A stretch of DNA of 64,000 bases, taken from Acidimicrobiia bacterium (GTDB lineage Bacteria; Actinomycetota; Acidimicrobiia; Acidimicrobiales; Bin134). Each line of letters starts with the position of its first letter. The first letter of the stretch is position 1. The notes beneath the pieces are model-generated. The model worked only from the letters and a program-made list of their open reading frames with translations. It was not told the origin of the DNA and ran no database searches. A program made the translations under genes and the position numbers. Shown piece by piece: positions 38,868 through 41,119 of this stretch. Where the stretch lies: NCBI GenBank assembly GCA_022819825.1, contig JAJEGM010000048.1:1-64000 (forward strand), read 5' to 3'.

Positions 38868-39005
38868 GCGGCCCAAGAGACCTCTCTGCCCAGTTATCCG
38901 GCCCAAGAGGGATCGCTCATCGCGCCCATGCTCATTCACATTCGCGGCTCCCCGCGAGCTCGGTGGAACCCCGGCCCTCTAGTTCACTGCATAGAGTTGC
39001 GCTGG

Positions 39006-39050
39006 TGGGGCTATGGGGGATAGTGTGGGACGAAGTGGGAGAAAAGGGGA
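39006..39050 (+). promoter_or_regulatory. MraZ operator: five G boxes at 10-bp steps
   Basis: Five boxes start at 39006 (TGGGG), 39016 (GGGGA), 39026 (TGGGA), 39036 (TGGGA) and 39046 (GGGGA), each exactly 10 bases apart. E. coli MraZ binds TGGGN repeats with 5-base spacers, the same pitch. The array ends 27 bases before the mraZ GTG, so it would give autoregulation of the dcw operon. Confidence 0.7.
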
Positions 39051-39077
39051 ATTGCTCGGGACCCGTTGGGGGGAATC

Positions 39078-39485
39078 GTGCTCACCGGTGAGCACACTCG
39101 CTCCCTGGACGACAAGGGCCGGCTCTCGTTGCCGCCGGCCTTCCGCTCGGTGCTGGCCGAAGGGGCGTACGTGGCCATCTACAGGCAGTGCCTCGGCATC
39201 TGGACTGCCGAAGAGGCCCGCAGTGCGCTGGAGCGATTCGAGGCGGCGGTTCGGGCCGGAGAGGCCTCCGGCGACGAGCTCCGGGCATTCTCCTCCAGCC
39301 TCGAACCGGCCACCGTGGATGCCCAAGGCCGGTTGAACCTCCCCTCCTCCAAGCGTGAGGTGCTGGGTCTGGACAAGAACGTGGTGCTGGTCGGTGTGTT
39401 CAACCGCGGCGAGGTGTGGAACGCGGAGCAATGGCAGTCGCTGCAAGCCGAACTCGGCGAGGCAGACGTAGACCGGTGGTTGTGA
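39078..39485 (+). CDS. mraZ: Transcriptional regulator MraZ
   Basis: This 135-residue AbrB-like double-domain regulator opens the dcw cluster. The two conserved blocks are HTRSLDDKGRLSLPPAFR near the N-terminus and TVDAQGRLNLPSSKREVLGL in the second half. The GTG at 39078 is chosen over the TTG at 39066 because family members begin just before the HTLD block. A GGGGGG stretch serves as the Shine-Dalgarno site. The 10-bp-spaced boxes upstream are its likely target. Confidence 0.93.
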   Translation: MLTGEHTRSLDDKGRLSLPPAFRSVLAEGAYVAIYRQCLGIWTAEEARSALERFEAAVRAGEASGDELRAFSSSLEPATVDAQGRLNLPSSKREVLGLDKNVVLVGVFNRGEVWNAEQWQSLQAELGEADVDRWL

Positions 39486-39509
39486 TGTGGATTCGCAGAC
39501 AGAAAACAG

Positions 39510-39690
39510 GGTCGGTGACCTCCATGTAGGCCGACCAGGAGTGCGCTCATGGGCAGTCCTCCGTCCGACGAGATGGAAGGCCCCTACTCCGCCCGCTTGC
39601 CATCTGACACAACCGGGGAGAAATCCCGGAGTGCGGTCGCCGGGCGGAGGACTGCCGATGGGCGACATTCTTGCCGTCCGATCCCATCGG
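39510..39690 (+). ncRNA. Structured leader RNA upstream of rsmH
   Basis: The 264 bases between mraZ and rsmH hold strong RNA structure. A hairpin (39510-39515 with 39531-39536, extended inside) comes first. A 16-bp stem (39552-39567 with 39641-39656, one G-U) then closes a junction with two inner hairpins: 39571-39576/39600-39605 and 39613-39617/39625-39629. An 8-bp stem follows (39655-39662/39683-39690), sharing two bases with the long stem. A structured 'mraW RNA motif' has been predicted in this position in other Actinobacteria; identity with it is inferred. Confidence 0.7.
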
Positions 39691-39749
39691 GCGCAAAAAA
39701 CAGGCCCTTCACGCAGCAGTCTGCTGAGCCGCCAGGGAGGTGAAAAATC

Positions 39750-40730
39750 ATGAACGGGGGGACACCGACAGCGATCGAACGTCGTTTCGTCCATCACCCC
39801 GTCATGGTGACAGAAGTGGTGGAGCACCTGTCTACGGTCCCGTCGGGAGCCTTTCTCGACGCCACCGTGGGCGGGGGAGGTCACGCTCGGGCGCTCTTGA
39901 ACGCCCGCCCTGACCTCTCGCTAATAGGCCTCGACCGTGACCCCTCCGCGGTCGAGGCCGCCACCACCGTCTTGGCCGGCCGCGGCGCCACGATCCACCA
40001 CGCCAGCTTCGGCCAGCTGGGCGACGTTCTGGATTCCCTGGGCGTTGCCCGCATTGTGGGATCGCTGTTCGACTTCGGGGTGAGCTCTCCGCAACTGGAC
40101 CAGCCCGAGCGCGGGTTCAGCTATCGCCACGATGGTCCGCTGGACATGAGGATGGACGGCGGCCAGCAGCTCTCGGCCGACGAAGTGGTGAACACCTGGT
40201 CAACAGACGAACTGGTCAAGATCCTGCGCTCTTACGGCGATGAGCGCTACGCCCACCGCATCGCCGCCGCCATCGCTTCGGCTCGGCCGATCGGGTCTAC
40301 CACCGAGTTGGCCGAGGTGGTTCGCAATGCCATTCCCGCTCCCGCCCGCCGCCGGGGAGGCCACCCGGCCAAGCGGACCTTCCAGGCCATTCGCATTGCG
40401 GTAAACGATGAGCTGAACCAGATCGAGCCTGCCTTGGAAACAACCATAAACCGGATGGCACCCGAAGGCCGGGGGGTGGTCCTCAGCTACCACAGCGGGG
40501 AGGACCGCATCGTCAAACAGGTTCTCCGCCGCCGGGCCGGACTTTCCGACGAGTCCCGCTATCTGGGACTGCCCCGCTCTGACACCCAGGCCCCACCCGC
40601 AATCGAATTGGTTCCCCGAGGCAGTCGCAAGCCCAGCCCTGCGGAGGTGGCCGACAACCCCCGAGCCTCCAGCGCCCGCTTTCGGGCCTTCTGCAAGCTG
40701 GGGGCCGACCAGGGTGAGGTGATCGGCTAA
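39750..40730 (+). CDS. rsmH: 16S rRNA (cytosine1402-N4)-methyltransferase
   Basis: This 326-residue SAM methyltransferase (MraW) modifies C1402 of 16S rRNA. It has VHHPVMVTEVVEHL, the SAM site FLDATVGGGGHA, FDFGVSSPQLD, and VLSYHSGEDRIVK near the C-terminus. A strong Shine-Dalgarno site (GGGAGGTGA) precedes the ATG. The stop codon overlaps the ftsL start (TAATG). Confidence 0.96.
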   Translation: MNGGTPTAIERRFVHHPVMVTEVVEHLSTVPSGAFLDATVGGGGHARALLNARPDLSLIGLDRDPSAVEAATTVLAGRGATIHHASFGQLGDVLDSLGVARIVGSLFDFGVSSPQLDQPERGFSYRHDGPLDMRMDGGQQLSADEVVNTWSTDELVKILRSYGDERYAHRIAAAIASARPIGSTTELAEVVRNAIPAPARRRGGHPAKRTFQAIRIAVNDELNQIEPALETTINRMAPEGRGVVLSYHSGEDRIVKQVLRRRAGLSDESRYLGLPRSDTQAPPAIELVPRGSRKPSPAEVADNPRASSARFRAFCKLGADQGEVIG

Positions 40731-41119
40731 TGGTCGCCCCGCAACACCGCCCCCAACCGTCGCCGGCCGACCCGGCCCACCAGACCGACCAGCCCCGCCA
40801 GCACCTCCGGGCGGCGCCACGGCCGAAACGCAGGCTGATGCCCGTGCTGGGCTGGGCTGCGGCCATCACCGTGGTTGTCGCCCTGTTCGCCCTCGCCCTC
40901 CTTCATGCCGTGATCGTGGACCGGCAAACCACTCTCGACAATCTGAATCAGCAGATTGAAGACGTTCGAGCCGTGAACGACCGATTGCAGCTCAACGTGG
41001 CCAGGGCAGAAGCTCCCAACCGCATCGTGGCCGAGGCGCTGTACCGGTTGGGGATGGTGGAGCCCGATGGCCGGACCTACCTGCCCCCGCTGGAATCGGA
41101 CGAGGGTGGAGCGAGGTGA
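40730..41119 (+). CDS. ftsL: FtsL-like cell division protein
   Basis: This 129-residue bitopic membrane protein has a Pro/Gln-rich cytoplasmic part, one helix (about 41-63) and a short coiled coil (QTTLDNLNQQIEDVRAVNDRLQ) as in FtsL. It would join FtsQ and FtsB to the divisome. Assignment rests on topology and gene order, since FtsL sequences are poorly conserved. It overlaps ftsI by 4 bases. Confidence 0.85.
   Translation: MVAPQHRPQPSPADPAHQTDQPRQHLRAAPRPKRRLMPVLGWAAAITVVVALFALALLHAVIVDRQTTLDNLNQQIEDVRAVNDRLQLNVARAEAPNRIVAEALYRLGMVEPDGRTYLPPLESDEGGAR

Follow-up and report, generated by a model that had tools for sequence, protein, structure and literature searches.

A conserved RNA structure between mraZ and rsmH of Acidimicrobiia, a candidate cis-acting leader of rsmH

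The described RNA that comes closest to the one reported here is the mraW RNA (Rfam family RF01746), which occupies the same place between mraZ and rsmH and is built of a long closing stem and a C-rich hairpin loop; it has no known ligand. Another leader of a 16S rRNA methyltransferase gene, that of sgm, is reportedly subject to translational autoregulation (a finding said to go back to Kojic in 1996), and its regulatory signal is said to be CCGCCC. The present RNA resembles the sgm leader in that both precede genes for methyltransferases of the 16S decoding site and both contain CCGCCC, a likeness drawn by sequence only, but it differs in being a large fold conserved across a bacterial class in front of the gene for a housekeeping enzyme. 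A third counterpart, UpsM, is the 5' leader RNA of the dcw operon in Rhodobacteraceae and likewise a structured untranslated RNA; according to the report on it (PMC5089854), UpsM precedes mraZ, runs up to a terminator, and very probably exerts its effect in trans, whereas the present RNA lies behind mraZ and has no terminator-like site around it. The ranges differ as well, in that one survey lists mraW among candidate structured RNAs for Actinomycetales (PMC2864571), whereas the RNA described here belongs to Acidimicrobiia.

The locus and the fold of the RNA core

The window, by which we mean the whole stretch of DNA analyzed, comprises 64,000 nucleotides of an Acidimicrobiia bacterium (contig JAJEGM010000048.1, positions 1 to 64,000, forward strand) from assembly GCA_022819825.1, which amounts to 3.4 Mb in 57 contigs. 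The genes that we take to be mraZ and rsmH (also called mraW), named from gene order and from family features, are separated by 264 bases (39486-39749), counted from the mraZ stop codon at 39483-39485 to the rsmH ATG at 39750. The tight packing of the other dcw genes that an earlier note on this DNA had pointed out is evident: rsmH shares its final base (40730) with the next open reading frame, which begins there, and the frame after that overlaps its neighbor by 4 bases (41116-41119). Repeated GTGGG-type boxes stand directly upstream of mraZ (39005-39041) and presumably resemble MraZ operators. A search with the mraZ protein returned 15 relative loci, all in metagenome assemblies with titles that read Acidimicrobiia, Acidimicrobiales, Candidatus Poriferisocius, or simply bacterium, and the class name given to the compared genomes follows these titles. 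Between 38850 and 39800 we found no terminator-like site, that is, a GC hairpin with a U run (0 versus 0.4 expected), and an attenuator with an intrinsic terminator was rejected on that count.

Table 1. Positions of the flanking genes and of the parts of the RNA in the window; R2 is the order-built model described in the text
Feature	Positions	Strand	Basis or remark
mraZ	39066..39485	+	Upstream flank; reading frame from TTG, true start possibly slightly further in
RNA core, long stem P1 enclosing hairpins P2 and P3	39545..39663 (119 nt)	+	Fold z score of -5.98; R2 match
P1, 5' strand	39545..39569	+	Outer 6 bp, 39545-39550 with 39658-39663; inner 16 bp, 39552-39567 with 39641-39656
P2 hairpin	39572..39604	+	39572-39579 with 39596-39604; covariation
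P2 unpaired, near-invariant loop CUCCGCCC	39587..39594	+	ACUCCGCCCG at 39586-39595
P3 hairpin with AGAAA-type loop	39608..39633	+	Covariation
P1, 3' strand, with purine-rich run GGCGGAGGA	39639..39663	+	Inner pairs 39641-39656, outer pairs 39658-39663
AUG inside P1, opening a 31-codon frame	39658..39660	+	Frame ends at 39751-39753, overlapping the rsmH start (ATGA)
Shine-Dalgarno-like AGGGAGGTG for the rsmH start at 39750	39734..39742	+	Sequence
rsmH (mraW), 16S rRNA C1402 methyltransferase	39750..40730	+	Downstream flank of the leader

Folding bears out the description of a strongly structured leader in the earlier note, with z scores of -4.05 for the whole 264-base leader and -5.98 for the core and with none of 200 shuffles as good in either case (Table 1). 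The 16-bp stem is present and encloses a junction from which two hairpins emerge, as described, and P1 has a further outer segment of 6 bp. The flanking elements in that description do not stand out from chance: with 82 of 200 shuffles as good, the upstream region of the separate hairpin (39486-39544) folds like shuffled sequence (z score of -0.08), and the downstream region (39664-39749) folds no better than chance (z score of -0.40; 66 of 200 as good). Congeners differ in the sequence 5' of the core, and a local downstream hairpin (at approximately 39675-39694), with some compensatory change within the genus, is absent from the order model. A competing stem, CGATGGG/CCCATCG, occurs, by reading, only in near-identical sequences, and a switch helix in which the P2 loop would pair with the 3' side of P1, which by reading is perfect over 9 bases in the window, was rejected because the G at alignment column 116 is standard-paired in just 5 of 83 sequences.

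Covariation was assessed on 83 sequences of the order, obtained from 98 loci with 107 matches after removal of 11 antisense matches (leaving 96) and of 13 near-duplicates, and aligned with MAFFT, which is blind to structure. On this alignment the proposed structure has 90.2% of cells paired, compared with 34.8 to 46.8% when the partner strand is slid by 1 to 3 columns, a comparison in which the tested structure enjoys an advantage, having been derived from the same sequences. Covariation of the stems among related genomes is strong, with compensatory changes on both sides at 35 of the 40 pairs (25.1 in shuffles) and in 433 cells (129.8 in shuffles; 0 of 500 shuffles as good), the shuffles being of a kind that does not preserve relatedness among sequences. 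By helix, both-side changes affect 20 of 22 pairs in P1, 6 of 8 in P2 (helices 2 and 3), and 9 of 10 in P3; RNAalifold alone, applied to the same alignment, returns only P1, with both-side changes in 20 of 22 pairs. Within the genus, where 22 loci less 4 duplicates left 18 aligned sequences, both sides have changed with pairing kept in 10 of 49 predicted pairs. G-U combinations (310 cells) exceed A-C combinations (93 cells), being in excess at 28 pairs and fewer at 9 (sign test, p = 0.0013), which points to an RNA transcribed from the rsmH strand. The structure, conserved through compensatory changes and read from the same strand as rsmH, conforms to what is expected of a cis-regulatory leader RNA.

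These patterns make it highly improbable that the region is a DNA palindrome (a protein site or a cruciform) or a small coding gene. P1 is indeed an inverted repeat, and the 31-codon frame that opens within it touches the rsmH start, but the sequence of P1 varies freely with its pairing kept, and G-U is far more frequent than A-C. The frames, moreover, are broken by an indel of one base that three congeners carry between P2 and P3, which speaks against coding, and by the loss of the AUG in several: this AUG is missing from 5 of the 9 genus sequences listed (L016, L018, L023, L048, and L049), and on that ground the frame was rejected.

Distribution in the class and relation to the mraW RNA

The core precedes rsmH in 20 of 21 congeners by DNA search, the remaining genome (G001) giving a chance-level match only. 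In the order, a search for rsmH matched 144 of 148 genomes, and 142 upstream regions (30 plus 112) were read, two loci at contig edges being left out. With a model built from the genus (R1) and then one built from the order (R2), a match on the rsmH strand at an E value of ≤0.01 was obtained at 114 of the 142 loci, a count that includes the locus of the window and sequences on which the models were trained and in which a few matches are marginal (e.g., L142 and L170). R2 scores the core of the window, itself one of its 83 training sequences, at 121.2 bits (E value of 1.2e-21), the sole match listed for that genome at an E value of ≤0.01. The 28 matchless loci show that the element is dispensable, and since in none of them are the mraZ stop and the beginning of the rsmH match more than 163 nt apart (no more than 100 nt in 24 of the 28), the element seems mostly to have been lost as a unit where it is absent in the order. 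In some genomes of the order (loci L099, L127, L186, and L171), the rsmH match follows the mraZ stop after at most 2 bases, which looks like clean loss of the element.

Across the class Acidimicrobiia, a whole-genome search with R2 (E value of ≤0.01) matched 166 of 198 genomes, 31 within the order of the window and 135 outside it, and in a draw across the phylum it matched 13 of 246 genomes, all 13 within the class; with up to 18 candidates scored per genome in the class search and up to 14 in the phylum search, weak forms could escape these counts. Fifteen class genomes yielded two R2 matches each, which, among the matches listed, fall on opposite strands of a single site, and among those matches there is one site per genome. 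Of the 135 genomes outside the order, 79 were checked, and the link to a single downstream gene is constant, with rsmH downstream at 79 of 79 and mraZ upstream at 78. The constancy of the partner gene and of the strand, together with the single site, argues for a cis element of rsmH. In other families of the phylum, an unfiltered R2 search of 20 rsmH regions gave two chance-level hits only (E values of 0.61 and 0.81).

The sequence of P1 is almost wholly replaced across the class, the P2 loop is retained, and several families outside the order have short forms that lack P3. The distance from the mraZ stop to P1 ranges from -8 to 228 (median of 52.5 at 172 loci), and coupling to mraZ translation through a fixed spacing was rejected on account of this variation. 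In a family with small genomes (0.6 to 1.1 Mb; L293, L295, L296, L297, and L300), the element is kept with an AT-richer core (GC of 0.45 to 0.47) that directly adjoins the mraZ stop. Two diverged mraZ-rsmH loci with the RNA at each (L038 and L044; also L009 and L023) occur in a single assembly, Candidatus Poriferisocius anaerobius m_rhhh12, which likely reflects a mixed bin. A metabolite riboswitch, responding to a wall precursor or to S-adenosylmethionine, would account for a compact junction, invariant unpaired letters, and a single target operon, but the invariant letters form one C-rich loop with no junction pocket, P3 is dispensed with in the families that have short forms, and no second site appears among the matches listed; we regard a riboswitch as improbable.

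The earlier note had placed the mraW motif at this position in other Actinobacteria, and this part of its claim stands, whereas identity with the RNA of the window is not supported. RF01746 (gathering score of 50 bits) matched its Corynebacterium glutamicum control and found nothing in the window or in the whole genome, and of 149 genomes from the phylum it matched 9 (7 above the cut-off), all nine outside the class. At 8 of the 9 loci read (L190 to L197), the match lies between mraZ and rsmH and has a long stem and a CUUCCCC-type loop, as against CUCCGCCC here; at the ninth (L198), where the match is subthreshold (E value of 9e-4), neither mraZ nor rsmH was found. A scan of the window at Rfam gathering scores gave no match at all, and a lax scan of 39000-39900 gave four (E values of 3.5 to 9.2), of which two overlie the core and every one scored well under its family cut-off, so that the RNA has no match in Rfam 15 beyond chance level. 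In 20 class relatives outside the order, a lax scan produced a single chance-level hit, which belongs to a different family and does not fall on the core.

That the RNA is a distant member of the mraW family, diverged beyond the reach of its model, is possible but doubtful. Such a kinship would fit the shared place, long stem, and C-rich hairpin loop of the eight mraZ-rsmH loci and the weak sense-strand hits of an unfiltered R2 search on the mraW sites of L194 (E value of 0.015) and L195 (E value of 0.019), in which the loops line up. In the same search, however, a palindrome elsewhere scored better (E value of 0.0066), and the remaining mraW sites had E values of at least 0.28, lay partly on the wrong strand, or had no listed hit; against kinship stand also the failure of RF01746 in this genome, the restriction of its nine matches to genomes outside the class, and the chance-level hits in other families mentioned above. 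The two RNAs share their place and perhaps an origin, and by RF01746 the RNA of the window is not a member. In C. glutamicum, a mapped mraW start site (2,266,932; PMC3890552) falls inside the RF01746 span (2,267,021 to 2,266,916, minus strand), which implies either a transcript without most of the motif or an end that is a cleavage product.

Searches of open-licence papers turned up no description of this leader, and the main texts of two surveys of new RNAs contain none of the terms rsmH, mraW, mraZ, Acidimicrob, and Ilumatobacter. The RNA is a family of a known kind, the cis-acting leaders, near mraW in place and shape and with a conserved loop of its own.

The start codons, the P2 loop, and the probable control of rsmH

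At 94 of 175 loci, the end of P1 carries a start triplet that shares the reading frame of rsmH. At 69 of these, no further in-frame start intervenes before the rsmH protein match, so that translation must begin in P1 or further up; the P1 triplet is the sole in-frame start within the core at just 14 of the 69, which leaves the true start unproven in the remainder. Predicted openness was scored for the 69 loci and for 67 with a downstream start (the other 39 of the 175 are not in this count): where the start is in P1, the AUG is predicted to be unpaired with a probability of 0.10 and the stretch preceding it with 0.01, compared with 0.47 and 0.43 for downstream starts, and the value for the AUG falls below 0.1 at 49 of 69 versus 13 of 67 loci. 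A purine run is present in P1 at 164 of 175 loci, a loose pattern in GC-rich DNA. Masking of both the start and the ribosome site by the stem is plausible at 69 of the 175 loci and unambiguous within the core at 14 of them, and the start triplets in P1 suggest control at the level of translation in part of the class. It could not be the whole function, since the P1 triplet is out of the rsmH frame or interrupted by a stop at 41 loci and there is no triplet at 40.

In the window, the rsmH start lies outside the core, its AUG being predicted to be 0.82 unpaired (0.57 for the preceding stretch) in the whole leader and 0.47 unpaired without the first 59 leader bases. Throughout its genus, P1 lies approximately 90 nt or more upstream of the rsmH start, so that masking there would be indirect or the RNA would act through processing or stability of the message. 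Another proposal is that the RNA governs processing or stability (e.g., as an RNase III site) and in this way fixes how much mraZ message there is relative to rsmH message, or that it is the source of a small RNA: the stem is long and near perfect, it is retained where the start codon lies elsewhere, and in Rhodobacteraceae a dcw leader reportedly gives rise to an RNA that acts in trans (UpsM; PMC5089854). We consider this unlikely, as it leaves unexplained both the near-invariant loop and the many in-frame start triplets of P1. That the RNA is kept where the start is outside P1, as in the window, suggests that the loop does something more, and most simply that it binds a partner.

Of 175 sequences, 159 have an exact CTCCGCCC in the loop stretch (153 of the 168 that are distinct), the other 16 loops, including that of one congener (L048), having drifted letters. 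None of the 19 gaps that were delimited in the 20 rsmH regions of other families contains CTCCGCCC, and CCGCCC alone occurs in two short ones. The loop could be a copy of the site on which RsmH acts: ACUCCGCCCG resembles ACACCGCCCG of 16S rRNA, a stretch that includes C1402 in the usual numbering, and RsmH or another decoding-site factor might then bind its own leader and repress. In the 3-kb strand around the 16S gene of the genome itself, the best match to the 10-base loop is ACACCGCCCG (9 of 10 bases), a score that shuffled loops equal within the 21-base region in 1.3% of 20,000 trials (post hoc p of 0.013) and, for 7 of 7 bases, in 2.3%. The idea was nevertheless conceived after the loop had been seen, and 9 of 10 bases anywhere in 16S rRNA are reached by 16% of 400 shuffled loops. 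No perfect 8-base match to the region exists, 8-base windows tie with other rRNA sites, the long-form loop, taken in 12-base windows, matches best elsewhere in 16S rRNA (10 of 12), and the mismatching U is itself near-invariant (171 of 173). The absence of CTCCGCCC from the 19 gaps of other families and the different C-rich letters of the mraW loops weigh in the same direction. RsmH, which N4-methylates C1402 of 16S rRNA, moreover acts on the 30S subunit and not on protein-free 16S rRNA, as reported in PMC5053481. Mimicry of this sort thus appears quite unlikely. A copy of helix 44 in both its strands by the entire P2 hairpin was rejected, as the letters of the P2 stem vary outside the order and the loop alone is constant. 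We rate as distinctly unlikely the more specific possibility that the rsmH mRNA carries, throughout the class, a decoy of the decoding-site strand methylated by RsmH, such that the supply of free RsmH or of unmodified 30S subunits would set rsmH translation; if it were true, the output of the division operon would be tied to ribosome assembly.

The reading that we prefer, to which we assign a probability of roughly one half (0.52), is a cis-acting, structured mRNA leader that controls expression of rsmH after transcription in most of the sampled Acidimicrobiia genomes. The structure, its strand and position, the near-invariant loop, and the in-frame start triplets of P1 in part of the class can be read from the sequences themselves, and they suggest that the RNA is transcribed and regulatory. 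The long and freely varying P1 would present the P2 hairpin with its C-rich loop, which in the simplest view a trans-acting partner would recognize, and in many species the 3' strand of P1 would hold, along with the purine-rich run, the triplet at which rsmH translation really starts. The folded RNA would keep translation of rsmH off, and binding of the partner to the loop would shift the balance, the controlled step being, we infer, the initiation of translation. The earlier note's proposal of an RNA control element for the wall operon is therefore to be narrowed: the RNA is structured and probably a control element of rsmH, and its control perhaps extends to the dcw genes behind rsmH.

The dcw operon of a little-studied class thus gains a likely point of post-transcriptional control. 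The RNA also opens a direct test of why rsmH, a gene for ribosome modification, sits in a cell-division operon, namely, whether the output of rsmH may be set by the state of the ribosome.
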